A program made the translations under genes and the position numbers. Of a stretch of DNA of 64,000 nt, positions 7,454 through 40,899 are shown piece after piece. Numbering within the stretch: position 1 is the first letter of the stretch; each line of letters opens with the position of its first letter. The DNA is from Pyropia yezoensis (taxonomy: Eukaryota > Rhodophyta > Bangiophyceae > Bangiales > Bangiaceae). The notes beneath the pieces are model-generated. The model saw nothing but the letters and a program-made list of their open reading frames with translations. It searched no databases and was not told where the DNA came from. The stretch lies in NCBI GenBank assembly GCA_009829735.1, contig CM020618.1, positions 20,383,346 to 20,447,345 on the forward strand, in the 5' to 3' direction.

Positions 7454-7817
7454 TGTAGCACAATAGGAGTCCGTCGCACGTTCACTCTCAGGGAACACTC
7501 ACGAAGGGGGATCGGCACCAACGTCACCGGGAGGCCAAGGTTGCTGTCTTTGGAGCGCAAGCCACGGGACCAAGATGGGAGCCCAAATGGGAGGGGTTTG
7601 TTGTTCTGCCTTGGCCGGCGGTGGATTCGCCGCCGGCCCCCTCGTTATAAACCCTCGGAGACACTACTAACTACCCTCCACCCCAAGATGCAAGTCCCTC
7701 TGGTCATACGTAACTTGTAGATACCGTGACCAGTACGGACTCTCAAATTGAAAGCCAAGGATTAGAAGTAGCCCCCCCTAACATTAGGGTCACAATACGG
7801 CCACCCATATTGCTACA
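7454..7817 (-). repeat. 3' LTR, gypsy family A copy 2
   Basis: A 364-bp LTR, TGTAGCAC...TTGCTACA read on +. A TATAAA box lies on the + strand at 7646-7651, pointing toward the antisense gene rather than away from it. Confidence 0.92.
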
Positions 7818-7830
7818 TATCCCCCCCTTA
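7818..7830 (-). other. Polypurine tract, family A copy 2
   Basis: On the - strand TAAGGGGGGGATA abuts the 3' LTR, the usual position of the plus-strand primer in LTR retrotransposons. Confidence 0.7.
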
Positions 7831-8289
7831 GATTCGGCCCGTCCTCGGGTCGAGTTGCATTCGGGTTACCGAATGTAAGTGGGTCGCGTGACCGTTTACC
7901 AGTCGGGTGGGGCTTTGCGCCCTGTCGCGACAGACACCCCTTTTCGAGGTTGCCTGAGGGGGGTGCCCCTCTTTGTGTGGTACACACACGATCCGTTTTC
8001 CGGACCGTTAATTTCCCGATGCGGGCTTCTGTTCACGACCCCCCTTTCCGAGGGGTGTGCAAGCGGATCCGCCACCAGGTGTCTGGTTGTAGGGGAGCCC
8101 CTCTCGTGAGACGATTGAGTGGGTGGCGGGGTTGCCCGCGTTGCGTGGGGGCGGTTGGGGGTGACCCCCCTGGTTACCCCGTGTGGAGGGGGCGTGGCTC
8201 CGGTCGAGGTGCCTGGGTGGAGCGCCCTCGTAGCCCGGCTGGCGCGGGTCGTCCCGCGCTGCCGTATCGCTCGTACTGAACTGTGTGGT

Positions 8290-8310
8290 TATAAGCGCGG
8301 GTGCCCGCGC
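8290..8310 (+). promoter_or_regulatory. TATA-like box plus GC inverted repeat before the antisense gene
   Basis: TATAAG at 8290-8295 runs directly into GCGCGGGTGCCCGCGC (8295-8310), a 7-bp-arm inverted repeat. It lies 107 bases before the ATG at 8403, a normal distance for a core promoter with a short leader. The same block precedes copy 1 of the gene. Function is inferred. Confidence 0.45.
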
Positions 8311-8402
8311 TTCCCTGGCTCGTCCTTGCGAGCGTTCCTTGTACCGGGTCGAGCCGGCCTCGGCTATTCTGCACGGGGCGCCCCTGCTACGCCGGTTGCA
8401 CC

Positions 8403-10772
8403 ATGTCGGACCCCCAGGTACCCGGGGGTGAGGACGACCTCCTGCTTGAGGAGGAGGAGGAGGTGATGGTGGACGACGTTCCCGTCTCTGCCACTGCCGC
8501 CGAGTGCTTCTTGGCGAGCTCGTCCGAAGACGAGGGCGACCGGGTGACCGTTCGCGTGGCTCCGGACGGTGCTCCGGGCGGTTTGTCGTCCGTGTGCAGC
8601 GGCACGACGGCTCCGTCGGGTGGCGGGCAACCGCGGTTAGCTGCTGCGTCTACCCCTACTCCTCCGGCGGCCCGGATGGCTCCTGTCGCCGGTGCCGGCG
8701 CGGCTCAACCTCAAGACGGCGTCGCCGGCGTGTCGGGCGGTTATGGTGGCACCCCGACCGGGACGGCGGGTCAAGACGGCGCGGGTGCCCGCCCGGGTGG
8801 TTCATCCGCGGCTGCGGGTGACGGGTCTACCCCTGCTGCCCCCGAGGTGCCCCCGTCGGGCTCGGGTGGCGGCGCTGCTCTGCCCGCGGTGCCGCGGGCG
8901 TCTGATGGTCAAGGTGGGTCTACACCGATGGCAGTGGACTCCGGTAGTTACTCCGGGCGGGCGCCCGCCCTTCTTCTTCCTCCTCGGCCCCGTGCCCCTC
9001 CGGCACCGGTCCATCTGCCGGTGGGGCTTCCCCCGGCGCCCCCGATTCTTCCTGGTCCTGCCCGGGTTGCCCCGTTGGGTGGCGGCGTCGCCGTGGCGGC
9101 GGGTCAACCCGCCATGTCGATGTCGGACTTGGTGGCTCGGGTTCGCGGCCTGACTGTGCAAGATTCAATGGAGTCCGATGGGCGGATGCGGGTGGACTTC
9201 CACCTGCCGCATCCCCGTGGAGAGTCCTCCCGGCGCGTCAAGGTGGACCCGAGTTGGGAGCGGGAGTTGGTGCGGCTGGTCAACCAGCCGAACGCGGTGC
9301 GGGTGGAACACCATTGGATCCTGAGTCAGCCGGACGACCGGCATGCGCAGCTCTGGCGCACCCGGGTGGGACGGGGTGAGGTCTACCTCGACCCCGCCTT
9401 CGGGGTATGCGACCTGATTGCTCCCGCGTTGCCGCGGGAGGTTGACTACCCGGCTAGTGCTCGGGGGATTGCGGCGGCGGCGGAGCCGGTTGCGTTTGGG
9501 GAGATGGTGGGCAGTACCGGTCGGTATCCCGACTTCGATTATTACCCGGGGGTATCCCCGTATCTGTCGTTGACGGCTCCCTACCCGCCTATGGCGGGTT
9601 TGAAGTCGGCGTCGAGCTGGCGACGTAACCATGGTGTCATGGCGGATGCGTTTCGCACGGATATAACGTGTGCGTTGCAGACCGGCAACGGTCGTGCGCC
9701 GGTATACACTCCCGTGCGCCCGCCTCTGTGGCAGGAGGGGTGGGAACCCGCCCCTGCTTTCCGGTTTGACACCGGCTCCTGTCTCCGATACTTCGGGAGT
9801 GTGTTGGCCTCCCGGCCGGTCCACCCGTTGCAGGGTACCTTCACCCTTGAGGTTACCCTCGGGCAGGCTTCCTCCTTCTTGCTGTCCGTCCGCCGGCAGG
9901 GGCGCCTGTTTCATCTTCCGACGGGTGTCCGTCGGCACATCGCGCAGTTGGGCGTGGACCTGATAGCCGCCAAGACCGGGTTGGCCCGGGAGTTCGAGGC
10001 CCTGCTGGCTGTTCACGATGCCGTGAACTGGGCCGGGGTGTTGTCCCTTCCCCCGTACCGGGATCCGCAGGCTGGGGCTTCCCCCTTGCCTCGTTACTCG
10101 TTGCGTATCCGGCGTACTCAGCCGGGTGAGCCTAGTTGCCATGGGTGGGCGTCCACCGAGGCTGTTGCTGACCTGGGTATTCCCATGGTTATCCATGTCC
10201 CTCTTCAGGTCCTTGCCCCGTGGTTCGGTAACCCGATACCGGCGGCGGTTGGCCGTCGTCCCCGAGAGTGGGGCTCTGCGGGTGGGGAGCGTGAGGTGTC
10301 CCGTCGTCGGGCGGAGCCCCGCCGGGGTTACGGTGGAGCCCCTTCGGTGGGGTCCTACCGGGCCTCATATCAGGCGCCACCGGCTCCGGTGGTGGCCGTG
10401 TCGGCTCCTCTGGCTCCTCTGGCTGCGCCAGTGTCCCCTCCCGCCCCTGTCATACAAGACGGGAGTCCCTGTCTCTGGTATGAGGGCGTTGACGCCCTTG
10501 TTGCCCGCGCAATGCGGGAGAGTCTCTCTGTTCGCTGGGAGGATATCCCCCCAGGTGCTGCGCTGGTTGGGTCAGCGCGTTGCTTCGGTGGCGTGCTTGA
10601 CCGCCTCCAGACAGCTCTGGAGGACGTGGAGGCTGGCCGCAGCACCCTCGTTCAGCTATGCACCGAGGTAACTCGGGTGATTGACCGTCGTGAGATAGCC
10701 GACCGGTGGAGCACGGAGGTATACGCGCTTACGCGTGAGCGGCCTCCCTCGGGCAGTGGGTCTACCCACTGA
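8403..10772 (+). CDS. Antisense accessory gene of gypsy family A (copy 2)
   Basis: A 789-codon open frame on the strand opposite to gag-pol, between the 3' LTR and the end of pol. The Met in TTGCACCATG starts an acidic head (residues 1-55), then a Pro/Gly/Ala linker to about 260, then a folded-looking region (about 270-650) with segments such as WERELVRLVNQP, PPLWQEGW and CLRYFGSVL. I know no family for it. A faint pattern (P-x-RP-x-W-x-E, then L-x-Y) recurs in the antisense frame of family B, suggesting common ancestry. It has its own TATA-like box and converges with pol across a hairpin array. There are no membrane segments. What it does (transcription control, packaging or host interaction) cannot be read from sequence. 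Confidence 0.7.
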   Translation: MSDPQVPGGEDDLLLEEEEEVMVDDVPVSATAAECFLASSSEDEGDRVTVRVAPDGAPGGLSSVCSGTTAPSGGGQPRLAAASTPTPPAARMAPVAGAGAAQPQDGVAGVSGGYGGTPTGTAGQDGAGARPGGSSAAAGDGSTPAAPEVPPSGSGGGAALPAVPRASDGQGGSTPMAVDSGSYSGRAPALLLPPRPRAPPAPVHLPVGLPPAPPILPGPARVAPLGGGVAVAAGQPAMSMSDLVARVRGLTVQDSMESDGRMRVDFHLPHPRGESSRRVKVDPSWERELVRLVNQPNAVRVEHHWILSQPDDRHAQLWRTRVGRGEVYLDPAFGVCDLIAPALPREVDYPASARGIAAAAEPVAFGEMVGSTGRYPDFDYYPGVSPYLSLTAPYPPMAGLKSASSWRRNHGVMADAFRTDITCALQTGNGRAPVYTPVRPPLWQEGWEPAPAFRFDTGSCLRYFGSVLASRPVHPLQGTFTLEVTLGQASSFLLSVRRQGRLFHLPTGVRRHIAQLGVDLIAAKTGLAREFEALLAVHDAVNWAGVLSLPPYRDPQAGASPLPRYSLRIRRTQPGEPSCHGWASTEAVADLGIPMVIHVPLQVLAPWFGNPIPAAVGRRPREWGSAGGEREVSRRRAEPRRGYGGAPSVGSYRASYQAPPAPVVAVSAPLAPLAAPVSPPAPVIQDGSPCLWYEGVDALVARAMRESLSVRWEDIPPGAALVGSARCFGGVLDRLQTALEDVEAGRSTLVQLCTEVTRVIDRREIADRWSTEVYALTRERPPSGSGSTH

Positions 10773-10924
10773 GGAGTGTTATTGTTTGTACGGGAGAGGG
10801 ACCCGGTGGCCCTTATGGTGGCCGGGTATTAGTGAGTATAAACTCATCCCCTTTGGGGGCATTGCTTGCCTCTGTTTGCTGCCCTGGGAGTACCCCTTCT
10901 GGCTCAGTGGTGCCTTGCCTCCCG

Positions 10925-11020
10925 TCCAACTTCTTCCGGTTGGTTCATGCTTGGGGAGGTCATCCTCCCTCACTATGTGTCTTGGCTTGGGGAGGTCATC
11001 CTCCCTTGTAAGCCCCCTAG
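10925..11020. repeat. Direct repeat with inverted core (GGGAGGATGACCTCCC type)
   Basis: GCTTGGGGAGGTCATCCTCCCT occurs twice, about 38 bases apart. Each copy contains the inverted repeat GGGAGG...CCTCCC around TGA. It lies 3' of the antisense gene and is mirrored at about 40-97 in copy 1. Confidence 0.7.
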
Positions 11021-11082
11021 TTACTTCGATATTATCGGAGTTAGCCTTTACCTTTAAGTTAACTTATTAAGGTTCAGGTTTT

Positions 11083-11178
11083 ACTTAGTTACCTAAGCTT
11101 GACTCTACTTAGTTGCCTAAGCTTGGTTCGACTTAGACATCTAAGTCTGATTTGACTTAGAAACCTAAGTCTGCCGTA
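11083..11178. repeat. Four exact-period 24-bp hairpin units between convergent genes
   Basis: Units start at 11083, 11107, 11131 and 11155. Each begins ACTTAG, has 4-5 variable bases, then CTAAG, so each folds into a small stem-loop. The AT-rich array sits between the 3' end of the antisense gene (10772) and the 3' end of pol (11250). A two-way transcript end or RNA-processing signal is a reasonable inference. Confidence 0.75.
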
Positions 11179-11249
11179 ACCATGTCACACCCTACTTAGT
11201 AGGTATAAGCCTCACCCCCCAACAGCCGAAGTCGGTGTCGGTTGGGTTG

Positions 11250-12570
11250 TTACAGTAGGCGTCGTCGCCTCATGTAAGGCATGAGGAGTTGGCGGGGTAT
11301 ACTTGCCGCCTGTTCCCAGGTGGGTGAGTCGTATCCGACCCACATAACCTTGACGTACCAGGGTCCTGGTAGGTCCGGGTCGGTGTGTCCGACCACGCTC
11401 TCTACTTGGTATGGAATCCCATCCGGTCCCACCGGGTCCTCTGACCGGCGGGTTGTAAGAGCTTCATGTAGCAACCCAGCCGGTATCGGATGAGGCTGTT
11501 CCGGCTTCGGAGCAGGTGTGACATCATTCACACTGATGCGTTGGATCTCCGTATCGGAGTGTAAGATAACAGAGTGGTCATCTCTGTGGAGAATCTGGTA
11601 CGGTCCCTTGACCGGTTGCATGAGCTTGTTCCCCCGGAACTTCTGGTGTCTGATGTAGACCCAGTCACCTGACATCAGGTTAGCGTTGCGCACCCGTAGC
11701 CGGGCGTCGAAGTTCTTCTTGTATCGAAGTTGTGTACGGTCAAGGGCGCCCTTGAGTTTCGGTATCATCCACGATAGCTTGGCTAACCAAGCTAAGTGGA
11801 TCCGTTCGGCCGGTCGGCCCTTCGGTGTATCATACCGAGTGCACCTGCCGGGTGGCAGCGTCAGGTTACCGACGCCTAGTGGCATGACCCACTCCAGTGG
11901 AGCGATGTTCGTGCTCCGATGTGGCCTGGCATTGTATGCCAGGGTGAGTACGGACAGGAGCCTGTCCCAAGTGTTCGTGTGCTCGGCCACGTAGCACTGT
12001 AGCACCTTGACGATGGTGCGGTTGAACCGCTCCACCTGTCCGTTGGTCTGCGGGTGGTAGTCGGATGCCCGACGTGGTTCGATGCCGAACATGCCCAGGA
12101 CCTTAGTGCAGAAGGCTGACGTAAGGTTTGCTCCGTTATCGGAGAGGAGTTGCTTCATGACTCCGTATGCACTGATCCAGTGGTCAACCACTGCGTTCAT
12201 AATCGTGTATGCCGTATCATTCGGGATGGCTGCCGCTCGTGACAGCTTGGTGAAGCGGTCTGACATGACCAGGATGTACCTGTTCCCTTCTTCCGTTACC
12301 GGAAGTGGCCCGAGTAAGTCGATAGCGACTTGCTCGTTGGGGCCAATCGGGTGGGAACAGCTTCATGGCAGACGCCTGCCTATGTAGACTCATGCGGTTA
12401 CGTGCACAGGGGTGGCATCCCCTTACGTGGTCGACCACGTCGACGGCTATTGCTGGCCAGTAGAAGAACCTTCGCATTGCTGCGAACATACGTGAACCCC
12501 CCGGGTGTCCGGCTGTGGGGTTCTCGTGTTCTCGTTCCATGACGGCTTGCCGTAAGGACACGGGAACCAC
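11250..12570 (-). pseudogene. Family A integrase with chromodomain
   Basis: Integrase part of pol. The HHCC-type zinc-binding end shows AGHPGGSRMF and GCHPCARN. The DDE core has DNGANLTSAF and YHPQTNGQVERFNR. A GPY-like region is followed by a chromodomain-type tail with YVKVMWVGYDSPTWE near the C terminus, which marks the chromovirus branch of Ty3/gypsy. Such tails bind histone marks and guide insertion in characterised relatives. The region spans more than one reading frame. Confidence 0.85.
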
Positions 12571-12693
12571 GACTTGATGTCGTCCATCGGCGGGTGCCCG
12601 CCGGTATATGAGTCCGTCTTCATTCTCGGAGAAGATGCCGGCCGTGCCGGCCAGGACGTTAGCGCGATGACGTCTACAGTCGTCGTCATTGGC

Positions 12694-15417
12694 TTATGCC
12701 TCGCGGAAGTCCGCGAGGGTCAATGGGCACGCAAGGTGTGCCATGGTATGGTCAACCATACCCTGGGTAGCATTACCCACCATGCACACCGGTACCACCG
12801 GGATGTCCTCGTCCACCGGGCGGGTATCCCCGCTCGGGGTGTCGAGTCGAGACAGCGCGTCTCTGAGGTGGTGGGTTGACCCAGCCTTATACACGGTGCG
12901 GTAGTCGTGCTCGGCCATCTTCAACCTCCATCGGGCTAGCCTCCCATGGCTATCGGAATCCTTGTCACCAAGGTTGAGGAGCCATCGTAGGGGTTCGTGG
13001 TCGGACCTCACGATGAACCTGGAGCCCTCCAGGTATGGACGGAGCAGTTGCACTGCCCATATAACCCCGAGGCACTCACGCTCGGTGGCACTATAGTTAC
13101 GCTCAGCCGGGTTGAGTGTCCGGCTGAAGTACCCTACCGGACGTAGGTCCGGGATAACGTTATCGGAACCGATCAACGTCTCCCCCTGTAACAGGGTGCA
13201 TCCCACTTGTGTATCGCACGCATCGACATCGATGACGAAGGTAACCCGTCTATGCGGTAACGCAAGGACGGGTGGGGATAGTAGGGCTCGCTTCAGCGAC
13301 TCGAATGCCTCCTCTTCGCTAGGCGAAGGGGGTTGGAGTACTTTGGGCAAGGTACTGCTCGTAAGAACCGTCAACGGTTTAGCAATCCGAGCGAAGTCCT
13401 CGACGAACCGTGGGTATACGTTGCACATTCCCAGGAAGCTCTTGAGCTGCGTCTGGGTGTTAAGGAACCGGGCAGCCCGGAGTGCCCGGGTATTGGCTTC
13501 GAGTACCCCTAGTTTACCAGGGGTTATCTGGTGGCCCAGATACTCGACCGTCTGTTGGAAGAAGGCGCACTTCTTCAGACGCAAGGTTACCCCGGCGTCC
13601 CTCAAGAGGGTGAGTACCTCGTCAACGTGTTGCACATGGTCATCCATGTAACGCGAGAAGACGATGACGTCATCGAGGTACACTAGGCAGTTACGCCACT
13701 TCACCCCCGACAGTATACTGTCGATATCCCGCTGGAATGTAGCGGGGGCGTTGGACAATCCGAAGGGCATCCTTAGGAACTCATACACTCCACTGTGACA
13801 GACGAATGCCGTCTTGGGGATATCCTCGTCCGCCACCGGGATCTGCCAGTATCCGGCATTGCAGTCGATGGTGGTAAACACCGTAGCTTCCCCCAGGGAG
13901 TCGATGCATTCATCCATCCTTGGTAAAGGGTATGAGTCCTTCTTGGTAACCAAGTTGAGGCGTCGATAATCGATGCAAAACCGAGGGGTTTGATCCTTCT
14001 TCGGTACGATAACGACTGGGGCACCCCACTCCGACATCGAAGGTCGTATCACCTTCGCTTCACTCATCCTCTTCACTTCTCCATCAACGATCTCTCGTTG
14101 CATAGGTCCCGCTCGGTGCGGTTGCGACCGGGCGGGGCGTGCGCCTGGTACCAGGTCTATACGATGTTGGGTTGCCCCAATGGTACCCAAGGCCCCGCCT
14201 GTCCACATGACGTCGTGCTTTCTTAGCATCCGTCGTACCCCTTCGGCTACCGAAGGGGGAAGGTGGTCGAGGTCGGCCTCGGCCAGAGCCTTCAAGGCTT
14301 CTTGGTCCTTTGGCGGCATGTCCGCCGGAGCCGCCGATGGGCTAGGCTTCCCGTCATCGGGTTGCTGTCGCTCGGTGGTCTCGGCGACCGCCAGCACCTC
14401 AAGTGGTTCCACTTGACCTTCCTTGTCAGGGGTAAGGATATCTCCTTCGTAGAGCTCGGCAATCCCGAGGATAGTTCCCTTCGGGAGGGTGACTGCCTTA
14501 CGGCGATAGTTCGCCATCACTAGGAGGGACGACCCTCCTGCTGGGAGGTCTATGAGACCGTTGGCCATGGTCAACCCATGGCGCTTGTACGTCCGCAGGT
14601 TGGACTTGAATCTGCAGATGCCTGCGAGGTCACAGTTAACCGGGAGGACTGTCTCCGACAACGGCTCAAAGCGAGTTCGCTTGGCCAACCGAAGTGTCTT
14701 CGGCTCGACGCTTGCGTACACCTCAGCCACGTTAACGTGGCTCCCTTGTAGCGTCAGGTCCCTGACGATAGCCGTATGTCCTCGCTTCGTCCCGTCGGCT
14801 TCTTGAAGTTCGACGGTCCTCCGGCCCGGCCGGATTGCATCAACGTGAACGTTGATGAAGGTGCATCCCAATATGCAGGGCACCGATAGGGTCTCACACA
14901 CCAGGAAGTCGACTTCCGTGGTGAGTTCCCCGATGGTAACCTGCAGCGACATCGCTGCGGTCGTACGAATGAGGCGACCATTCGCGTCCTTGATGGTGGG
15001 TCCCCGAGTCACTCTGACTCGCGGAAGCCACTTGTCCGGGAGGGTGTCCTTCCGGATAAGGTTGGGTCCAGCCCCTGTATCCAGTACAGGGTAGTACGAT
15101 CGGGTCGACTGGGGGTCAACCCCCAGCGTGGCTGATGCCTTGAAGTTCTCCAAGGTGAACAGCACGTGGCCTACACCGATATCCGGTGTAGCTCGGGCAT
15201 CCTGAACAGGGCCCTTGTCTGGTTCCATGTGACGGGGCTTCCCGTCCTCTCCTCCCAACCTTGGAGGTTGGTAATCAATCCCCTGACGCCGTATCGTCGG
15301 GGCCGGAAGGTGTACCCGGGGGTTGATGCGGCGTCGGCTCAACCGCGCTCTCCGTGGGGCTTTCCCCGCGGTACTCCGGGGTGGCTTGCTTGGGTTACCC
15401 CAGCGCCCCCCGGTCAT
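12694..15417 (-). CDS. Family A protease, reverse transcriptase and RNase H
   Basis: A 907-codon frame. The aspartic protease motif DTGAGPNL lies about residue 115. The reverse transcriptase runs about 440-640 with FCIDYRRLN, FGLSNAPATF and the active-site box YLDDV. RNase H starts near FVIDVDACDTQVG and ends with a DALSRL segment. Order PR-RT-RH before integrase is diagnostic of Ty3/gypsy. It follows gag by 56 bases in a different register. The frame looks whole. Confidence 0.93.
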   Translation of the reverse strand: MTGGRWGNPSKPPRSTAGKAPRRARLSRRRINPRVHLPAPTIRRQGIDYQPPRLGGEDGKPRHMEPDKGPVQDARATPDIGVGHVLFTLENFKASATLGVDPQSTRSYYPVLDTGAGPNLIRKDTLPDKWLPRVRVTRGPTIKDANGRLIRTTAAMSLQVTIGELTTEVDFLVCETLSVPCILGCTFINVHVDAIRPGRRTVELQEADGTKRGHTAIVRDLTLQGSHVNVAEVYASVEPKTLRLAKRTRFEPLSETVLPVNCDLAGICRFKSNLRTYKRHGLTMANGLIDLPAGGSSLLVMANYRRKAVTLPKGTILGIAELYEGDILTPDKEGQVEPLEVLAVAETTERQQPDDGKPSPSAAPADMPPKDQEALKALAEADLDHLPPSVAEGVRRMLRKHDVMWTGGALGTIGATQHRIDLVPGARPARSQPHRAGPMQREIVDGEVKRMSEAKVIRPSMSEWGAPVVIVPKKDQTPRFCIDYRRLNLVTKKDSYPLPRMDECIDSLGEATVFTTIDCNAGYWQIPVADEDIPKTAFVCHSGVYEFLRMPFGLSNAPATFQRDIDSILSGVKWRNCLVYLDDVIVFSRYMDDHVQHVDEVLTLLRDAGVTLRLKKCAFFQQTVEYLGHQITPGKLGVLEANTRALRAARFLNTQTQLKSFLGMCNVYPRFVEDFARIAKPLTVLTSSTLPKVLQPPSPSEEEAFESLKRALLSPPVLALPHRRVTFVIDVDACDTQVGCTLLQGETLIGSDNVIPDLRPVGYFSRTLNPAERNYSATERECLGVIWAVQLLRPYLEGSRFIVRSDHEPLRWLLNLGDKDSDSHGRLARWRLKMAEHDYRTVYKAGSTHHLRDALSRLDTPSGDTRPVDEDIPVVPVCMVGNATQGMVDHTMAHLACPLTLADFREA

Positions 15418-15473
15418 CCTTCCTCTTACTCGTTTCCCGCCCTTGGTAGGGTGCTGTCCGCCGGGACCTCCGG

Positions 15474-17495: not shown

Positions 17496-17526
17496 TGGCG
17501 TCACCACAAGGGTGACGGAAACCCGT

Positions 17527-30013: not shown

Positions 30014-31754
30014 ACTGCGCGTATTCGCGAGCTCCGTGCCTATACAGGCAGCGATCTCTTAGTGTCGGTGAGCCTTGCTCAGTATCTTGGTGACCTTAGG
30101 TCTAGCTTGTCGGGCAGGCAAGGATGCGTCGGGGAGACTGCCCGTCGGTCCTCGACTTACTCGTTTTTTGAGTCGGCCTTGCCGTCGCCGGTGTCGACGC
30201 GTCCGACGTCGTCGTCCTCCGAGTCCGGCAGGACTTCGTTCTCGACGATCGCGTTGATCTGCTTGCGGACCGAGTCGTCGATGAGTGCCATCACTCGTGC
30301 CTGACGTCGTTCACGACGGGGCTTAGGGCATTGAGAGGCAAAGTGCCCGCGCTCGTTACAGTTGTAACAGATGTCGTTCGCTCGCGGGTTTGGGCGTGTC
30401 CGTGCGGACAGCCTTAACGGGGTCGAATGGTCGATCGACCGTGCGCGCTTGGGGCCCCGGGGTAGAGTTAACTTGACTAACCTTGATCATGGCAGGCCGG
30501 CTGGCCTTGATGGACTGCCGCAGGCGAGTGGCGCCCTCCCAAAATCCTCGGGCAGCTGCCACTGTGTCCGCCATTGGGCGATCGGGGAATTGACTGTCCA
30601 GGACGCGGACGTTTGGCTTGATAAGGCCTGAAAGACCGTTGATGAAGACGTCCTTTACGTCTTGAGCGGAGAAACAGGCCGCAGAGGCCGATCGCATGCC
30701 GCCTCCACGCGGGAGGCAAACGCGCGCGGGACCTCCGCGTCCACTTGAGTCATCCGTAATGATGTCGTGATAGGCTGTTGCCAGGCCGGCGTGAGTTGCG
30801 TACTTCTTGAGAAGCCAGCTGACTCCTTCACCATAAGTGGTGAGCTGGTAGTGCTTGCCACTAACAATCGTGTTGGCCGCGCTGGCGAATGCGCGCTTGG
30901 CGGCTCCCGCCAGCCGGAAGGCGATCAAGGGGATCGCCCGGCCGTGGGTCAGCCCTGCCGCGTCGCAAGCTCTGCGAAAGCTGGTGAGGAAGGTGAAGAC
31001 ACCCAGGGGGTCGCCACCGTTAAAGGTCTCTTGACATTGGAACGCGCCGTCAAGGCGCTTGTTCATCTTGCTAGCGTCCTTCACCATGGATGGTGTGTAC
31101 TTGGTGCTCCGTCGGAGCAGGAAGTAGGTCCGGTAATCCCGGAGTGACTTGAAGCGGCTGTTGCCGGGTCGAATGACCAACTTTCGGTCACCCAACTCCG
31201 TGAGTCCAGCGGCGGGCGCCGGTCGGCGCCGGTGACGACGCGCACGTCGACGGTGTGCGTTTGAGCTGCTCGTAACGGACTCACTGCTCTATGAGCTTGG
31301 GCTTGACGGCGGGGAAAGGGTCCCAACGACCGTCATCAGTTTCGTCCGAAGACGAGGAAGACGAGGACGACGAGTTGTCGGATGACATCCCGTCCTCAGC
31401 GGATGATGCGCCTCCCTCCCGTGCGTTCGAACGCTTAGTCGAGGCCTTGACCCTCAGGTCCTCGACTTGGCGCTCCAACACGCGGATCCGACGGTTCTTC
31501 ATCTGAAGATTGCCAATAGGCAGGCTGGCGTGGGAAGCCTTTGGAGCAGGTCCCCGGGCCATCTTGCCCACCGACTGTCGGTTCGACGTCGTCCGTTCAC
31601 GAAACGCCTCATTTGAGGTTGGCTTTCTCAGCTCCTCAAGAGTGGTCACCAGTTTGGTGTTGGACTTCTCCAACCCTTGTTGGCGGCCTCTTGGGCCTCA
31701 AGACGGGCATGAAGTGCCTCCACCACCGCCCTCAAGCTCTCCAACTTGGAGGTA
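30014..31754 (-). pseudogene. Family B gag region, left copy, ending at the gap
   Basis: The same gag as at 38527-40392, read up to the assembly gap. It shows the capsid-like part (MGDRKLVIRPGNSRF) and the Ser/Asp-rich coiled-coil head. It differs from the right copy by several one-base indels that cluster near the contig end, which looks more like sequence error than biology. Confidence 0.75.
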
Positions 31755-32254
31755 NNNNNNNNNNNNNNNNNNNNNNNNNNNNNNNNNNNNNNNNNNNNNN
31801 NNNNNNNNNNNNNNNNNNNNNNNNNNNNNNNNNNNNNNNNNNNNNNNNNNNNNNNNNNNNNNNNNNNNNNNNNNNNNNNNNNNNNNNNNNNNNNNNNNNN
31901 NNNNNNNNNNNNNNNNNNNNNNNNNNNNNNNNNNNNNNNNNNNNNNNNNNNNNNNNNNNNNNNNNNNNNNNNNNNNNNNNNNNNNNNNNNNNNNNNNNNN
32001 NNNNNNNNNNNNNNNNNNNNNNNNNNNNNNNNNNNNNNNNNNNNNNNNNNNNNNNNNNNNNNNNNNNNNNNNNNNNNNNNNNNNNNNNNNNNNNNNNNNN
32101 NNNNNNNNNNNNNNNNNNNNNNNNNNNNNNNNNNNNNNNNNNNNNNNNNNNNNNNNNNNNNNNNNNNNNNNNNNNNNNNNNNNNNNNNNNNNNNNNNNNN
32201 NNNNNNNNNNNNNNNNNNNNNNNNNNNNNNNNNNNNNNNNNNNNNNNNNNNNNN
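31755..32254. other. Assembly gap (500 N)
   Basis: Exactly 500 N, a placeholder scaffold gap of unknown true length. The flanks overlap in content: 23885-31754 and 32255-40120 are the same sequence. Confidence 0.98.
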
Positions 32255-33432
32255 AGGCCGAGCGGCCGGTGCGCGGGTTTTACCGTAGCCCGCAGGCGAC
32301 CTACATGGTCTATGGTGTCGGCTTCGTGGCGGATGCGCCGTTGTTGGAGGCGGCGCGTTCCAACCGCTAGTTGGCGCTGCAGCGCATCCGTGACGCGCGG
32401 TGGGTAGCGTTGGCCTAAGTTCCGGGACGTGTCCGTTGGCGGGGTGTTTCACGCAGGCGAGTCCGTCTCAGATGTGCACGGGGATGCCGACTTTGGCCGA
32501 CAAGGCCCGGAGCGGCAGGCGTCCGAGGTCTTGTCGTTGAGCAACGAGTTGTTGCGGTACGCGTCCACCGGTGCTCTGCACGTGTATCACCGGCGCCTTT
32601 ACGCCTGGGCACTGCGGTTCCGGGTTGGGAGCACCGAGACCTTCATGGTCGCTGCCAATAACTTTGGGCGGCTGCGTAGCTTATGGACGTGTGCGGTGTT
32701 CCTTGAACGCGACTTGGCCGATCGGCTGGACGTCCCGATCGCGGAGGATCCTGGCATGGAGGGGTACTTGACCATGCTGGCCGACAAGGCGTACCCCGGC
32801 AACCCTCCGCCTGACCTCGACTTTGGTCCGTCGTTGAGCGACCTCCCGCAGCCCTTCCGGGCGCCGACGACGTTCATTCGTTTCCGTCGGTCGAACGACC
32901 TCCGCGTCGATTGAGCGTCGGGCTTGCTGGCCCCTGCCTGGGCCTCGAGTCTGGTCCGTACGCGACCGTTCTTCGACTTGAAGTGTTGGCTTCCGTGTCG
33001 CCCGTCCTGGTGGACCGAGTATGGGCCATACATGGAGACGCCGGTGGCGCTGTCTTACGTTGCCACTCGGCTGACGGAGGCGGATAACGCGGCGTGGGGC
33101 ATCGTCTTCGACGAGTTCTTCTGCTTCCTGCTTGCCGCGTGGGTACACTGGTTGGTCCACGACGGACTGTTTTTCCGGTTGAGTGACCAAGTGGTCGGGT
33201 GGTTGGACGGCTCGAGCGTAAGCCACCTGGCTGACGGCCCGGCGGTGACGAGCGTCTGTTGACGTACCAGCGTATGCGGGAGGCGCACTCCGTCTTTCCT
33301 TGGACCACCGTGGTCGCGGACGTTCATCGTCGTGACTACCACACGAAGGCCGCCCTTGAGGTGTATGTCAAGCCTGACCCGTCGGCCAAGTATGGCTTTG
33401 CTCTTCGCCAGCCGTGCGGCTCGTTCGACTGA
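32255..33432 (+). pseudogene. Antisense gene of family B, main part (right copy)
   Basis: The duplicate of 23885-25062, lying at the start of the right-hand contig. See the left copy for content. The small differences from that copy lie close to the gap and are probably sequencing error. Confidence 0.5.
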
Positions 33433-33465
33433 AAGTACGATGCCACTTCGGCGGAGTCGCCCGGT

Positions 33466-34065
33466 GTGGGCTGTTCGGTCGACCGTGGAGGTCGTGATGC
33501 GGGTCATCGAGTGCGTGATCGCACTCGTTCGCCATCGCCGCCGGCGGTTGGTGGGTCACGTGACCGTGCTGCTGAGCCGTCGACGTGCCGCGGTGGCGAT
33601 GAGCCGATGTGGCCGTCCGACTTGGCTCGCGTGGGAGCGGTTGCCCTGTTGGGCGCGGAGCGCGTTGATGCCTTGGCTGGCCGTAGTGTGCCTCGCGGTG
33701 CGACGGCCGTTGCCTTGGCAGTTGCGTGGTCGCGCCAGACCGTCGAGATGGAGGACGTTATCCGTCGGGTTGGTGGTATGACCGAGTCTCAGGCGGTGGA
33801 GGAGCTTCTCCTGGCCATGTCCCGTATGGCGGACCCCTCTCAGATTCGAGACAGCGTGCTCGCTGAGCTGCGTCACGCTCCCGTGGTGGAGGCGCGGGGT
33901 GAGAGTCCTCGTCGCGTCGACGTCAGTGCCACTCTTGGCCGGCGCCGGCGGCCCGTGTCGTACGATGAGGAGGAGCCGGCTACTCCGGCGCCGGTTCGCC
34001 ACGTGCGTTCGCGCAGTCCGTCATACGACGAGGACGCGCGTGGTCGTTACCGTCGTGGCACTTGA
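33466..34065 (+). CDS. Antisense reading frame of family B, C-terminal part (right copy)
   Basis: The 199-codon frame identical to 25096-25695. Confidence 0.5.
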   Translation: MGCSVDRGGRDAGHRVRDRTRSPSPPAVGGSRDRAAEPSTCRGGDEPMWPSDLARVGAVALLGAERVDALAGRSVPRGATAVALAVAWSRQTVEMEDVIRRVGGMTESQAVEELLLAMSRMADPSQIRDSVLAELRHAPVVEARGESPRRVDVSATLGRRRRPVSYDEEEPATPAPVRHVRSRSPSYDEDARGRYRRGT

Positions 34066-34111
34066 GGGGTTTTTTGACGATGTGTCGAGTGTTGTGCCTA
34101 TTGGCGTCTTG

Positions 34112-34663
34112 TCAGTCTAGCTTCGTCTTGCCTTGCCGACTGGCGTGTTTGTTTCTTGTGCGTTTGCATTGAAAGTGGAAGGCAGTCTTTGCCCATTGTG
34201 TTGACACCGAGTCGTGGTGTGATGTCGGATTCAAGAGTATGTACTCGCACCAGAGCCGTTTGGCCTTTGTAAACCAGGCGGCGTGTTCTCTGCGGGGAGT
34301 GACCAAGAGTGTGTCCGTTGGATTAACTTGCAGGTCTGTGACCACTTGGTCGAGGGTGTGTACTAGGGGTATTCTCAGGCGTGTGCCTTTTGAGTGAGGT
34401 TGCTCAGTGGTGGTGACGCCTGTACCTGCGTGGCATACCAAGGGACCGTACCGCCCGGTGAGCTCCGGTAGCTCCCTGTGTTGGCCCCATATGGGGAAGG
34501 TAAAGTTACGACTTGCCGATGGCAATGTTGCCTTCATGTAGTAGACAGGGATTCTCTCCGTAATGGAGCGGTCTGCGTTGTCCCATTGGACAATAGCCTG
34601 TATCACCCCCCATGGGTCGACGTAGACCGCCATGATGGTGGGGTCCCATGACTTAGTAGTCAC
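34112..34663 (-). CDS. Extra sense ORF after family B pol (right copy)
   Basis: Identical to 25742-26293. Confidence 0.55.
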   Translation of the reverse strand: MTTKSWDPTIMAVYVDPWGVIQAIVQWDNADRSITERIPVYYMKATLPSASRNFTFPIWGQHRELPELTGRYGPLVCHAGTGVTTTEQPHSKGTRLRIPLVHTLDQVVTDLQVNPTDTLLVTPRREHAAWFTKAKRLWCEYILLNPTSHHDSVSTQWAKTAFHFQCKRTRNKHASRQGKTKLD

Positions 34664-34768
34664 AGTCTTGATGTCCGCAACACTTGTTGCGAGAGTTACT
34701 CGAGCCGATGTCTTTGTGGTTTTTCGCCACGTGTATCCTGGTATTTCGACCTTTTTGGAACGCAGGTG

Positions 34769-37700
34769 TCATATCACCAAGTTACGTGGCAAGTTTTCCA
34801 CCGGTTCCCAGGTGTCATCCTTAGGGGTATAATCATACCATCGGACTTTGAATTCGTAAGAATCCCCGCACCGTCGATGGGACATGAGCTTGTCGATGAC
34901 GTATTCGTCGTGGATGGTTGGCTCCGGCCGTGGTTTGTCAAACCCATCAAGAAGTGGATGTGGAGTGGACTCGTCACAGTCGTCCGGGCGCGGTGCCGCT
35001 GTGGCGTGGTCGCTGTTGATGCGCTTCTCGATGCCATCGACGTCGATGACGAACGTAGACTCGTCAGCGTCGACGACGATGAATGGCCCTACGGCCTTGC
35101 TCTGCAGCTTGTTGGCTCGTTGGTGGTTTGTCGTATAGACATAGTCGCCGATCTTAATCTTGCGATTGCGATCCCCAATGTGGGCGTCGAAGTTACGCTT
35201 GTAACGTTGCTGAGTTTTGGCGAGGGCATTGACGACGGCCGGGATCTGCAACCGCAGTCGGGCCATGAACTCGCGCTTTCTCGCGAGCGGCGAGCCGTCG
35301 TTGAGGGTTCCTCGTTGGGCTACCGACGTGCCGGGTGGCAGGTAACGGACCGATAGGTTCGGGATGCGTCGTGGAATGACAAGTTCGAAGGGTGCTAGTC
35401 CAGTGGACCGGTGTGGTTGGCTGTTGTAAGCCATCGTGAGGACGGGCAGCAGCTCGTCCCAGCGCTCGGGGTCCTCGGTCACGTAGTGACGTAGTTGCGT
35501 CGCAATGGTACGATTGTACCGCTCGACTTGACCGTTGGTCTGAGGATGGTACGCGGTGGTGCGTACCGTCTCCACTCCGAGTACCTTCATCACGGCAATG
35601 AAAAAGTTCGACATGAACTGGGGTCCTTGGTCGGACAAGATCTTGTCCGGTGGGCCATAGCAGGCTATCCAATGTTCAATAACAGCGGAGGAGACGGAGA
35701 TGGCTGTGATGGTCTTGAGTGCTATGCACTTAGTTAGCTTTGCAAAGCGGTCGGTAATGACCAAGATGAACCGGTTGCCGCTTTTGCTTGCCGGCAAGGG
35801 ACCGAGGATGTCAATTGACAACTCCGTCAGCGGATCCGACGCAGGGAACAAGGTCAGCGGCGTCGTGTGCTTACGCAACGCCAGGCAGTTCTGGGCACAA
35901 GTGGTGCAGTTGGTAATGGTGTTGTGGATATCCGATATCATGGATGGCCAGTAGAACTTTGTTCTCATTGTGAAGTACATCTTGTTCATGCCCGGGTGGG
36001 CGGCCGTGGTGGCCATGTGTTGGAGCTTCAAGATGACATCTTGTTGCGACTTGGGGATGACCAGTTGGTCTCCATACGCAGTCTTGCGACGTAGCGCGTT
36101 GTTGTCATCGAGGTAGAATGACTTGTGGCCTCCGTTTGCGACACTGTCGATGATCGACTTGCCGAAACCATCCGATTGTTGTTTGTCAATGACTTCGTAG
36201 AAGTCAAGGGGTTCGGGATCCGTTGTGCCCGTGTACCTGTCCGTTTGGACGCCGTGTGCTGTCTGGGCCACCGCTAGACATGGAATGTCATCGTTGATCG
36301 CGTCGCTCATCGCGCTGTTGTCCGCGCGAGAGAGGAAGTCTGGGAGGTGGTGACTGGCACCTGGCTTGTACTTTAGTTCGAAGTCGAACTCAGCGAGGCG
36401 CATACGCCATCTCATCAAGCGACCGCTAGAGTCAGCGGTGCTGTATATCCAGCTCAAGCTTTGATGGTCCGATCGGATGATGAAGTGTTGTCCTTCGAGA
36501 AAGTGCCTCAACTTGAGGACGGCCCACACTATGCCAAGGCATTCTCTCTCCGTTGTGGAGTAGTTGAGCTCTGCCGTGTTGAGGGCGCGGCTACAGTAGC
36601 CTAGTGGCTGTGCCTTGCCATCATCGTCCGCTTGGAGCAATGTGCAGCCGAGTTGGTAAGCACTTGCGTCGACGTCGAGCGTCAGCTCGCGACCTGCCTT
36701 AGGTAAGGCTGAGATTGGTGGGTGCACCAAGGCGTCGCGCAAGTCTTCAAAGGCTGCCGTCTCCTCTGTGGAGGGTGGTGGAAGGTCCGGTGGGACGTCC
36801 TTCTTTGTCAACGCGTTGAGCGGTCTTGCCCTCTTGGTAAAGTCTACGACGAATCGTCGATAGACGTTGCACATGCCGAGAAAACTTTTGAGTTGAGTCT
36901 TGGTCTTGGGGAACGTCGCTTGACGAAGGGCGTCGGCGTTCTTGTAAAGAACGTGGAGCTTACCTGGCGTTATGCTGTGGCCGAGGTACTCCACCTCGTT
37001 GGAAAACCACTTGCACTTCTCAAGATTGAGAGTCACGCCAGCCTCCCGTAGTCGGGTAAGGACCTTGTCCACATCATGGATGTGTTGTTTGGCGTTTGCC
37101 GAGAATATGATAACGTCGTCTAAATAGACGAGGCAGACCTGCCACTTGAGTCCGGAGAGGATAATATCCAGGGCACGTTGGAACGACGCCGGGGCATTGG
37201 TCAAGCCAAATGGCATAGTTGTCCAGTCGAAGATGCCATAGTGCGTGGTGAACGCCGTCTTTTCTTGGTCCTCTTGCCGCAATGGCACTTGCCAGTACCC
37301 AGGGGTACAGTCGAGAGATGTGAAGACCTTGGCGTCTCCAAGGGAGTCGAGGCAGTCCTCCATGCGCGGAAGGGGGTACGCGTCCTTCTTGGTGATGCTG
37401 TTGAGCCGTCGATAATCGACGCAGAATCGGGCCTTCCCATTTTTCTTGGGGACGATGACGACCGGCCTGGCCCAGTCACTGTGACTTGGTTTAATAACCT
37501 TGAACTTCAACATCTTGTTGATTTGATCGACAATGATCGCACGTTTGAACGCGCCGGTCCGGTAGGGCTGGGCCCTTATAGGGGCAACCCCAGGTGGAGT
37601 GACGATGGCGTGCTCTGTAGCGTGGATCTTGCCATGCTTGGCCAACATCGACTTGATTTGCGCATGCAAATGTTGGGGTGCCCCGTCAAGGTTGATGTCA

Positions 37701-38383
37701 TCAAGAGACGGTTTGGGTTGCTCGGTCTCCGGGTCGGATGACCCCTTATCCTCCGTCGGGGCGGCGAGGACGCACCCCTTTCGCAGGATGGCCGTGTCTG
37801 GCCCGAAGTTGCACACCTTAACCAGGAATGGTTCGTCAGGCTTGACGGTGGCCAGTCCGCGGGCGACTGCCATGGTCTTGTGTCGGCACAATCGTGCGTT
37901 TGGTTGGAGAGTAACCAGTCCCGGAGTGTCACAAGTGACCATGATCCATTCCTCGGTCTTGCCCTTGAGGCGTGTTTGCTTACAAGCACGGACCTTAGTC
38001 GACCCCCCGGTCCATTGAGGTTCCATAACATTGTTGTACTGGATGCCCAAGATGGGAGAGTGAGCCGTCGAACGATCGTTCGAGGATTGCAAAGCGATAC
38101 GTTTGAGTCGGGGCCAGATTGACTCCACGTGCTTGTCCGTAAACTCGGTCCCGAGTATGCACTTGACCGACAGGTAGGGGGTAACGTAAAAACATTCAAG
38201 GGCCTGAACCCCCCCGGTATCGATGAACAAGTGGATGGCTAGTAGAGCCTCGATCGTTTGCCCGTTGGCATCAACAATGTGCGGTGCACTGGTTAACGTG
38301 TCGGCGTAATCGCGCCAATGTGGCGGTAGGACGTCCGGCCGGATAAGGCTGACGCCAGCTCCGGTGTCAAGGATGGGTCTCAT
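34769..38383 (-). CDS. Family B pol (right copy)
   Basis: A 1204-codon frame identical to 26399-30013, with protease, RT, RNase H, integrase and chromodomain. In this copy the downstream gag is also complete. Confidence 0.95.
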   Translation of the reverse strand: MRPILDTGAGVSLIRPDVLPPHWRDYADTLTSAPHIVDANGQTIEALLAIHLFIDTGGVQALECFYVTPYLSVKCILGTEFTDKHVESIWPRLKRIALQSSNDRSTAHSPILGIQYNNVMEPQWTGGSTKVRACKQTRLKGKTEEWIMVTCDTPGLVTLQPNARLCRHKTMAVARGLATVKPDEPFLVKVCNFGPDTAILRKGCVLAAPTEDKGSSDPETEQPKPSLDDINLDGAPQHLHAQIKSMLAKHGKIHATEHAIVTPPGVAPIRAQPYRTGAFKRAIIVDQINKMLKFKVIKPSHSDWARPVVIVPKKNGKARFCVDYRRLNSITKKDAYPLPRMEDCLDSLGDAKVFTSLDCTPGYWQVPLRQEDQEKTAFTTHYGIFDWTTMPFGLTNAPASFQRALDIILSGLKWQVCLVYLDDVIIFSANAKQHIHDVDKVLTRLREAGVTLNLEKCKWFSNEVEYLGHSITPGKLHVLYKNADALRQATFPKTKTQLKSFLGMCNVYRRFVVDFTKRARPLNALTKKDVPPDLPPPSTEETAAFEDLRDALVHPPISALPKAGRELTLDVDASAYQLGCTLLQADDDGKAQPLGYCSRALNTAELNYSTTERECLGIVWAVLKLRHFLEGQHFIIRSDHQSLSWIYSTADSSGRLMRWRMRLAEFDFELKYKPGASHHLPDFLSRADNSAMSDAINDDIPCLAVAQTAHGVQTDRYTGTTDPEPLDFYEVIDKQQSDGFGKSIIDSVANGGHKSFYLDDNNALRRKTAYGDQLVIPKSQQDVILKLQHMATTAAHPGMNKMYFTMRTKFYWPSMISDIHNTITNCTTCAQNCLALRKHTTPLTLFPASDPLTELSIDILGPLPASKSGNRFILVITDRFAKLTKCIALKTITAISVSSAVIEHWIACYGPPDKILSDQGPQFMSNFFIAVMKVLGVETVRTTAYHPQTNGQVERYNRTIATQLRHYVTEDPERWDELLPVLTMAYNSQPHRSTGLAPFELVIPRRIPNLSVRYLPPGTSVAQRGTLNDGSPLARKREFMARLRLQIPAVVNALAKTQQRYKRNFDAHIGDRNRKIKIGDYVYTTNHQRANKLQSKAVGPFIVVDADESTFVIDVDGIEKRINSDHATAAPRPDDCDESTPHPLLDGFDKPRPEPTIHDEYVIDKLMSHRRCGDSYEFKVRWYDYTPKDDTWEPVENLPRNLVI

Positions 38384-38526
38384 ACTGCGCGTATTCGCGA
38401 GCTCCGTGCCTATACAGGCAGCGATCTCTTAGTGTCGGTGAGCCTTGCTCAGTATCTTGGTGACCTTAGGTCTAGCTTGTCGGGCAGGCAAGGATGCGTC
38501 GGGGAGACTGCCCGTCGGTCCTCGAC

Positions 38527-39561
38527 TTACTCGTTTTTTGAGTCGGCCTTGCCGTCGCCGGTGTCGACGCGTCCGACGTCGTCGTCCTCCGAGTCCGGCA
38601 GGACTTCGTTCTCGACGATCGCGTTGATCTGCTTGCGGACCGAGTCGTCGATGAGTGCCATCACTCGTGCCTGACGTCGTTCACGACGGGGCTTAGGGCA
38701 TTGAGAGGCAAAGTGCCCGCGCTCGTTACAGTTGTAACAGATGTCGTTCGCTCGCGGGTTTGGCGTGTCCGTGCGGACAGCCTTAACGGGGTCGAATGGT
38801 CGATCGACCGTGCGCGCTTGGGGCCCCGGGGTAGAGTTAACTTGACTAACCTTGATCATGGCAGGCCGGCTGGCCTTGATGGACTGCCGCAGGCGAGTGG
38901 CGCCCTCCCAAAATCCTCGGGCAGCTGCCACTGTGTCCGCCATTGGGCGATCGGGGAATTGACTGTCCAGGACGCGGACGTTTGGCTTGATAAGGCCTGA
39001 AAGACCGTTGATGAAGACGTCCTTTACGTCTTGAGCGGAGAACAGGCCGCAGAGGCGATCGCATGCCGCCTCCACGCGGGAGGCAAACGCGCGCGGGACC
39101 TCCGCGTCCACTTGAGTCATCGTAATGATGTCGTGATAGGCTGTTGCCAGGCCGGCGTGAGTTGCGTACTTCTTGAGAAGCCAGCTGACTCCTTCACCAT
39201 AAGTGGTGAGCTGGTAGTGCTTGCCACTAACAATCGTGTTGGCCGCGCTGGCGAATGCGCGCTTGGCGGCTCCCGCCAGCCGGAAGGCGATCAAGGGGAT
39301 CGCCCGGCCGTGGGTCAGCCCTGCCGCGTCGCAAGCTCTGCGAAAGCTGGTGAGGAAGGTGAAGACACCCAGGGGGTCGCCACCGTTAAAGGTCTCTTGA
39401 CATTGGAACGCGCCGTCAAGGCGCTTGTTCATCTTGCTAGCGTCCTTCACCATGGATGGTGTGTACTTGGTGCTCCGTCGGAGCAGGAAGTAGGTCCGGT
39501 AATCCCGGAGTGACTTGAAGCGGCTGTTGCCGGGTCGAATGACCAACTTTCGGTCACCCAA
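38527..39561 (-). CDS. Family B gag, capsid and zinc-knuckle part
   Basis: A 344-codon frame. The helical capsid-like part runs about residues 1-230. It is followed by the CCHC knuckle CYNCNERGHFASQC near 280, then a basic stretch and an acidic tail. The knuckle binds element RNA in relatives. pol starts 143 bases downstream. Confidence 0.88.
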   Translation of the reverse strand: MGDRKLVIRPGNSRFKSLRDYRTYFLLRRSTKYTPSMVKDASKMNKRLDGAFQCQETFNGGDPLGVFTFLTSFRRACDAAGLTHGRAIPLIAFRLAGAAKRAFASAANTIVSGKHYQLTTYGEGVSWLLKKYATHAGLATAYHDIITMTQVDAEVPRAFASRVEAACDRLCGLFSAQDVKDVFINGLSGLIKPNVRVLDSQFPDRPMADTVAAARGFWEGATRLRQSIKASRPAMIKVSQVNSTPGPQARTVDRPFDPVKAVRTDTPNPRANDICYNCNERGHFASQCPKPRRERRQARVMALIDDSVRKQINAIVENEVLPDSEDDDVGRVDTGDGKADSKNE

Positions 39562-39654
39562 CTCCGTGAGTCCAGCGGCGGGCGCCGGTCGGCGCCGGTG
39601 ACGACGCGCACGTCGACGGTGTGCGTTTGAGCTGCTCGTAACGGACTCACTGCT

Positions 39655-40392
39655 CTATGAGCTTGGGCTTGACGGCGGGGAAGGGTCCCAACGACCGTCA
39701 TCAGTTTCGTCCGAAGACGAGGAAGACGAGGACGACGAGTTGTCGGATGACATCCCGTCCTCAGCGGATGATGCGCCTCCCTCCCGTGCGTTCGAACGCT
39801 TAGTCGAGGCCTTGACCCTCAGGTCCTCGACTTGGCGCTCCAACACGCGGATCCGACGGTTCTTCATCTGAAGATTGCCAATAGGCAGGCTGGCGTGGGA
39901 AGCCTTTGGAGCAGGTCCCCGGGCCATCTTGCCCACCGACTGTCGGTTCGACGTCGTCCGTTCACGAAACGCCTCATTTGAGGTTGGCTTTCTCAGCTCC
40001 TCAAGAGTGGTCACCAGTTTGGTGTTGGACTTCTCCAACCCCTTGTTGGCGGCCTCTTGGGCCTCAAGACGGGCATGAAGTGCCTCCACCACCGCCCTCA
40101 AGCTCTCCAACTTGGAGGTAGTGACATCCTCCGAGTCACGGTTGGGGGGGGTAGCATCGGGTGCCGGACGGCGGCTTGTTCCGCTCCCTCCGCCTGGTGG
40201 CGTGTAACCCGAAGGCAGGGCAATCCCCTTACCCTTCGAGCGCCGAGCGCCATCAGGGGCTCCCGAAGCCATATCGCAACCCGGCGTACTCGCGTCGGCG
40301 CGCCCTGCGTCGCCGACCAAAAGGTCCTCGTGGCACGACGCCCGGCGTCGTCCAGCCTTCACCGATCGGTGATGTCGCCCGGCAACGCCCAA
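39655..40392 (-). CDS. Family B gag-region N-terminal frame (coiled coil)
   Basis: A 245-codon frame. The likely start is the internal Met of MASGAPDGARRSKGKG (near 40272). A Gly/Pro-rich head is followed by a coiled coil with heptad-like Leu/Ala (LESLRAVVEALHARLEAQE) and a second helix (LERQVEDLRV). It ends in poly-Ser and acidic residues. It lies between the primer-binding site and the capsid frame, so it is either a separate leader protein or the N-terminal part of gag. Confidence 0.65.
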   Translation of the reverse strand: MGVAGRHHRSVKAGRRRASCHEDLLVGDAGRADASTPGCDMASGAPDGARRSKGKGIALPSGYTPPGGGSGTSRRPAPDATPPNRDSEDVTTSKLESLRAVVEALHARLEAQEAANKGLEKSNTKLVTTLEELRKPTSNEAFRERTTSNRQSVGKMARGPAPKASHASLPIGNLQMKNRRIRVLERQVEDLRVKASTKRSNAREGGASSAEDGMSSDNSSSSSSSSSDETDDGRWDPSPPSSPSS

Positions 40393-40473
40393 TCAAGCGA
40401 TCGTCAACACAACTGCCACAAGGCACCAAGGAACACGTACGAGTGTGCGGCAGCGCCGCACACGAGCAGTATA

Positions 40474-40489
40474 CCCTGCTGCTCCACCA
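40474..40489 (-). other. Primer-binding site, family B
   Basis: TGGTGGAGCAGCAGGG on the - strand, one base inside the 5' LTR. It is identical over its length to the family A site. Confidence 0.8.
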
Positions 40490-40490
40490 A

Positions 40491-40899
40491 TGTGGAATAT
40501 GTGTTACCCAATAAAAGGATGTGGGACCGACCGGCGCCCGGAAGGCAAAGAGGGACCTATTACCGTAAAGGCAAAGAAGACAGACCTTTAGCTTCAGGAC
40601 GTTCGATGGGGAGCAAGCCGGCCAAACGGCAGCGGCGAGCCCCCACGTCGCCTATACCGGGCGAAACAATTATGCCGGTCGAGCGACCGAGCGAAGGCCG
40701 GACGGGCCGATCGCTACGAGCATAGCAAACAATATAAAAGATCCCTCCAAAGCAAGGACAGATAAACAATGCAAAACAAAAGTAGTCCCCCAAAGGGCGA
40801 GCCACAAGCGGACCCAGACCAACAAGGTTGGGACCACCAGTCAAGGGGGCTACTTGCCCGTAAATACCGGAAATCGGTACGGTGGGCGGATATGCTACA
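40491..40899 (-). repeat. 5' LTR, family B
   Basis: A 409-bp LTR, differing from 22454-22861 at about four positions by eye. Confidence 0.92.

Follow-up and report, generated by a model that had tools for sequence, protein, structure and literature searches.

The window analysed here is a stretch of 64,000 nucleotides of the red alga Pyropia yezoensis (C1:20383346-20447345 of a host genome of 107.5 Mb in 11 contigs). Self-comparison of the window resolves three LTR retrotransposons: A (7454-17907), B (22454-40899) and C, which lies around B. The gag-pol genes of all three are on the minus strand, and each element has an extra gene on the plus strand, located between pol and the 3′ LTR. The open reading frames, the layout of the elements and the relatives of these genes bear out the original prediction that A, B and C each carry a long antisense gene before the 3′ LTR. 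The features, in window coordinates, are:

7454..17907, minus strand: family A LTR retrotransposon (self-BLAST), with LTRs at 7454-7817 and 17545-17907
15474..17651, minus strand: A gag-like ORF (ORF list), with a zinc knuckle below cut-off only
12694..15417, minus strand: A protease-RT-RNaseH ORF (Pfam RVT_1 9.9e-35, RT_RNaseH 3.9e-29)
11250..12266, minus strand: A integrase ORF (rve 3.5e-4, below cut-off; 35-37% identical to the B, C and F integrases)
8403..10772, plus strand: A antisense gene, 789 codons, intact
9717..10058, plus strand: shared antisense domain in A (held-out profile search)
273..2642, minus strand: antisense gene belonging to another A element, inverted and cut off by the window start (ORF list, self-BLAST, genome relatives)
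22454..40899, minus strand: family B element, nested in C, with LTRs at 22454-22861 and 40491-40899 and a duplicated internal region
26399..30013, minus strand: B pol with chromodomain (Pfam RVT_1 1.4e-38, Chromo 1.2e-8)
23580..23781, no strand assigned: array of 11.2 tandem 18-bp repeats, shortly before the ATG of the B antisense gene
23828..25695, plus strand: B antisense gene, disrupted in this copy (frameshift early in the gene, stop at 25060-25062)
24619..24960, plus strand: shared antisense domain in B (held-out profile search)
32411..33429, plus strand: broken copy of the B antisense gene within the second of the two tandem internal regions; two genome-search matches, one of them L017
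41820..46558, minus strand: C gag-pol frames with RT, RNaseH and an integrase zinc domain; B interrupts them
22136..22444, minus strand: C pol end with chromodomain, beyond B and continuous with 40900-41819 (Chromo 8.6e-5; 22.8 bits against a cut-off of 25.1)
19449..21880, plus strand: C antisense gene, broken here by a frameshift and stops (one at 20621-20623)
20642..20998, plus strand: shared antisense domain in C (held-out profile search)
18697..18829 with 46645-46777, no strand assigned: repeat pair, 91.7% identical (self-BLAST)

Structure and class of the elements

The LTRs of A are 97.8% identical, have TGT...ACA ends and are flanked on both sides by the 5-bp target duplication GCGGC; those of B are 99.0% identical (self-BLAST), and its target duplication is CAGGG. 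B lies inside the integrase gene of C: the C integrase breaks at residue 308 and resumes at residue 308 beyond B, with CAGGG at both B flanks, and B is therefore nested in C. The 133-bp repeat pair on the two sides of this arrangement represents probable remnants of the C LTRs. The antisense gene of A reads from its ATG at 8403 without a stop, confirming the expectation that it is intact over 789 codons. In C, the antisense region had been placed at 20069-21880; the region itself holds, and the gene probably starts farther upstream, at the ATG at 19449.

RT and RNaseH are above the Pfam cut-off in A, B and C, and the integrase core is above cut-off in the C relative L051 and in the further family F, and below it in B and A. 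The proposal that all three are chromovirus families stands for B, whose chromodomain (PF00385, 1.2e-8) scores 35.2 bits against the cut-off of 25.1; it falls narrowly short for C, which like F reaches 22.8 bits, just below that cut-off; and A, with no Pfam chromodomain match, may be a chromovirus judging from a chromodomain-like integrase tail seen by eye only. Identity among the four pol proteins (A, B, C, F) is 35-49%. A, B and C are very probably Ty3/gypsy (chromovirus-type) LTR retrotransposons with a two-direction genome layout.

Several further observations concern the same stretch. The second A element occupies window positions 1-3596, inverted and near the first, and is 99.83% alike to 7449-11044 over the common part; its RT, at C1:20378974+, falls outside the window. 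A and B have the same 17 bases adjoining the 5′ LTR (17515-17544 and 40461-40490), a putative primer-binding site without a matched tRNA, and their RT regions are just 44% alike. The internal region of B is present twice head-to-tail (23885-31754 and 32255-40120, 99.87% identical) within one LTR pair and with no LTR seen between the copies, which may reflect a template switch, recombination or an assembly artefact. In some B relatives (e.g. L019), the open frame extends through a repeat-like stretch that corresponds to the tandem array. Outside the three elements, window positions 54000-60000 have 76-80% GC and overlapping long frames on both strands.

Relatives of the antisense gene and its position next to pol

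Copies of the antisense gene in the genome were counted as similarity-ranked matches, which may be fragments, and "without a stop" applies to the matched span, with frameshifts not counted; on this reading, the gene is without a stop in 40 of the 57 matches listed for A (span 1-789, in one case 1-788; 93-100% amino-acid identity), 57 of the 87 listed for the B type, 82 of the 100 listed for C (frames often of 779 codons) and 91 of the 95 listed for F (frames often of 724 codons). The B matches listed include a group at 92-95% identity and another at 73-75%, whose frames reach 941 codons; six others, at 26-28% with frames of 995-1085 codons, make up family D. Weak B matches at 4.8e-4 and 8.3e-4 led to families F and E. 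E has a 393-codon frame, and the frames of its four close relatives span 606-1289 codons; its gene is related to that of B, as the E search finds B at 4e-7 and the B search finds E at 8e-4. Four loci with frames of 629-1074 codons that are 31-32% like E (C1:15159025, C1:30710069, C2:6117810 and C1:8629036) are probable further families.

Homologues are present in another species as well as in other elements, although their absence had been considered as an outcome. Pyropia vietnamensis has three relatives of the A antisense protein (42-53% identical, all annotated "hypothetical protein") and two of the B protein (45%); besides these, two further A relatives were found at 95-96% identity, 15 more B relatives at 38-48%, and one match to the C protein at 98%. 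The antisense family suggests that retroelement genes account for some of the "hypothetical proteins" annotated in red algae. Viral contigs searched with the A and B antisense proteins yielded no relatives.

At the loci that were fetched, an opposite-strand pol or integrase frame ends 3′ of the antisense gene in 26 of 30 cases for B, 29 of 30 for C and 3 of 3 for F, a count that omits L070 and L071 and in which the B and C loci include the window copies L009, L017 and L039. The loci without a converging pol end are L015, L017, L023, L033, L044 and L069; the last is the single fetched locus of D and is without pol (0/1). For D, the coordinates put RT on the strand opposite the antisense gene, at 4724-4756 bp, in 6/6 matches. 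For B, opposite-strand RT is found at 3529-3542 bp in 13 of the 33 typed among 87 matches listed (27 typed of 150 listed RT matches were used). For A, 3 of the 57 antisense matches listed pair with one of the 50 RT matches listed, at 1904-1928 bp, and this pairing neither proves nor disproves linkage because the two sets of matches are ranked by different genes. For C, the antisense and RT matches listed, compared by eye, gave no pair except the window's own; its antisense-pol linkage comes from the fetched loci. Placement next to pol is claimed for A, B, C, D and F only.

A shared central domain of the antisense proteins

Whether each antisense product resembles the others depended on how the profiles were built. 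Single-family profile-profile comparison of A, B and C was not significant, and splitting these profiles into N-terminal, middle and C-terminal parts gave no significant result in nine comparisons with 60 column shuffles each (in the best, A-C middle, 3/60 shuffles equalled or exceeded the real score). With D, E and F added, the top non-self match of the A profile was F (E 0.04), and those of the B profile were D, F and E (7e-23, 0.005 and 0.085, respectively); the D and E profiles find B, and the best matches of the A, B, D and E profiles outrank all 2416 decoys. With the C and F profiles, no other family rose above the decoys. A and B align to one common stretch of F.

Leave-one-family-out profiles were significant: for each of the five families held out in turn (A, B, C, D and F), one member scored above 3000 of 3000 shuffles, with all C copies counting as one observation and E standing outside the held-out test. 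Within family C, copy L045 reached only 2.5 bits against 15.5 for C1. The bounds of the domain were first set by eye on these same sequences, which favours a match; a control with 2284 real six-frame ORFs, using whole ORFs as targets, keeps the separation, with the best held-out member at 1e-5 for A, 5e-9 for B, 3e-11 for D, 1e-12 for F and 1e-3 for C, and the best unrelated ORF at E 1.1 or worse. This unrelated ORF is outscored by 2/3 held-out ORFs for A, 32/46 for B, 1/1 for D, 5/6 for F and 27/52 for C (many fragments). When C and E are left out of the profile, they are the next families in its ranking, with unrelated ORFs at no more than 4.4 bits. For the C-terminal region, a likeness seen by eye was not significant in the leave-one-out test (shuffles equal to or above the real score: A 958, F 324, C 290 and B 19 of 3000). 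We therefore claim only the middle domain; the failure of the C-terminal region in the same test also indicates that the method does not find similarity everywhere.

These comparisons support a single domain in the A, B, C, D and F proteins, as judged by the leave-one-family-out profiles, whereas the single-family ones mostly do not; they thereby lend support to the proposed conserved protein family across A, B and C. The faint RP-x-W ... L-x-Y pattern reported for A and B is present in both, at the start of this domain. Separate capture, by each family, of a different and unrelated gene at this one place would fit the lack of mutual matches among the single-family A, B and C profiles and the C-terminal regions that are not significantly alike, but the central domain was recovered for every held-out family above unrelated ORFs, and we consider such captures very improbable.

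The antisense proteins had been predicted to form an undescribed family, and the library searches agree. Pfam searches of the A-F antisense proteins gave no family that reaches cut-off and no recognised nucleic-acid-binding domain; NCBIfam and PHROGs, searched with four of the proteins (B, A, C and F), gave weak matches to F only, far below cut-off where one exists; and the PDB, searched by sequence with the B and A profiles, gave none for B and one chance-level match for A (E 0.17). Structure prediction was run as proposed, for the B-type protein P0008 (18 sequences) and for A (6 sequences); the models, with mean pLDDT of 40 and 33, respectively, are too poor for a fold to be named.

Coding potential and selection

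The 825-codon stop-free frame of A exceeds the longest frame (522 codons) obtained when its region was simulated 400 times with a first-order Markov model. The 353-codon frame of B was reached in 28 of 400 simulations, so that ORF length alone is no proof, and the 418-codon frame of C in 1 of 400, which is marginal. Because window frame length is weak evidence for these two families, the proof of a gene in B and C comes from their relatives.

Nei-Gojobori dN/dS was calculated for pairs of diverged B copies, pairs of diverged C copies and B1/D. Rather than near 1, the values in the antisense gene frame are 0.13-0.30 in B and C (B1/B2 0.20; B2/B3 0.13; five C pairs 0.24-0.30); the B and C pairs have no stop codons in this frame, and their differences concentrate at third positions of the antisense codons. 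The other two forward frames and R1/R3 give 0.8-3.0. The mirror frame R2, which overlaps at the wobble position, gives 0.27-0.37, not far from the C values, and contains 8-21 stop codons. The B1/D pair is near saturation, with 0.56 in the gene frame vs. 0.69 in R2. Chance open frames without a gene might be suspected in a GC-rich region with many long frames on both strands, where the B frame is not unusual, but the simulations for A, the dN/dS of B and C in the antisense frame, the P. vietnamensis homologues and the domain common to several families leave this reading almost no probability, and we reject it.

We conclude with high confidence that the antisense gene of B and C is protein-coding and under purifying selection, that its place in the element is constant between families, although their pol proteins share no more than 35-49% identity, and that a central domain of ~115 residues is common to the A, B, C, D and F proteins.

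Possible function of the antisense protein

In these elements, gag-pol reads inward from the 5′ LTR, and the further gene reads the opposite way from near the 3′ LTR and meets pol tail-to-tail. The first step, shown for B and C, is a coding gene kept by selection; the second would be an antisense transcript from a promoter near the 3′ LTR, where the published description of Grande places a promoter upstream of gene23 (PMC7264820); and the third, action of the antisense protein in the nucleus. Our tentative reading, which we put at slightly less than an even chance, is that the protein made from such a transcript is a nuclear accessory factor that would act on the element's transcription, RNA, chromatin state or silencing. 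A nuclear regulatory role is proposed for plant antisense retroelement proteins in two studies (PMC7264820, PMC11963269). On this evidence, an anti-silencing factor and an activator or repressor would look alike. The last 100 residues contain 19-27 Arg/Lys in B and F and 12-14 in A, C and D; the basic tails of B and F fit nuclear action and do not prove it.

Alternatively, the gene may encode a structural or particle protein, either a second gag-like or an env-like one. The proteins are long (about 620-790 aa), and maximum hydropathy over 19 residues, which ranges from 1.29 to 1.78 on the Kyte-Doolittle scale, reaches the usual membrane cut-off of about 1.6 in two of six proteins (1.62 in A and 1.78 in B1); however, the other four lie below it at 1.29-1.54, no gag, env or capsid profile matches, the tails of B and F are rich in Arg/Lys, and the antisense orientation would uncouple the product from genomic RNA. 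An env-like gene in particular is disfavoured by orientation, as the antisense gene is on the strand opposite gag-pol, unlike an env-like third gene. We regard a structural role as unlikely.

A special case of the nuclear reading is an anti-silencing protein directed against host methylation or small-RNA silencing. Other transposons encode anti-silencing proteins, such as VANC of VANDAL elements, and a function of this kind would account for retention in high-copy families, but antisense transcription could itself feed silencing (PMC7264820); to this special case, too, we assign a low probability.

Returning to the nuclear accessory factor, we consider the odds about even for a broader reading, in which the antisense gene of red-algal chromoviruses would descend from a common ancestor predating the split of the pol lineages, and these elements would be an ambisense group whose antisense proteins make up a superfamily of their own, with no relation to plant TRP28, serving nuclear regulation of the element or a shield from silencing. 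"Ambisense" here refers to gene layout and selection alone.

Comparison with known systems

The antisense gene HBZ of HTLV-1 would be a likeness of working only. HBZ is a bZIP protein, whereas Pfam scans of the antisense proteins described here gave no bZIP match. HBZ and related deltaretrovirus antisense genes are described as having an antisense promoter within the 3′ LTR and, as product, a nuclear protein (PMC7264820, PMC11963269). Boty-type gypsy elements of Botrytis cinerea carry the antisense gene brtn and, by description, resemble our elements in that an LTR element has gained an extra antisense gene although its host is not a plant (PMC7264820, PMC8365987). Other accessory proteins of algal transposons are mentioned in PMC12477816, which in its accessible portion does not name this gene.

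The plant gypsy elements Retand, Grande, RIRE2 and PvRetro13 carry antisense TRP28 ORFs between pol and the 3′ LTR, and an antisense ORF at this place is, according to PMC11963269 and PMC7264820 and to our data, a regular feature of both Retand and the present families. A second likeness lies in tandem arrays, which are reported in the antisense-ORF region of about half of the surveyed Retand elements (PMC11963269) and have a counterpart in the 18-bp array upstream of the B ATG. Retand is classified as a non-chromovirus (PMC11963269), whereas here the chromodomain of B pol is above cut-off and those of C and F are just below. Furthermore, Retand has TRP28 and belongs to flowering plants, whereas TRP28 (PF04195) has no match at E<=10 in this red-algal genome, nor in the proteins scanned with Pfam; Retand membership is therefore rejected.

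The layout itself is thus already known, from plant and fungal gypsy elements, and what is new, as far as the literature searched goes, is the protein family and the host group. We call them new because the antisense proteins match no known family and no report of an antisense gene in red-algal LTR elements was found among the papers listed by the literature searches, which did not reach subscription journals. Antisense genes in LTR elements are known, but their function is not, and these families offer a testable system for what such genes do. The best-surveyed plant case is built on a single domain, reported from flowering plants only (PMC11963269). That red algae have a second protein family in this position, clearly under purifying selection and with well over two hundred copies, suggests a gene that is either ancient or repeatedly selected.
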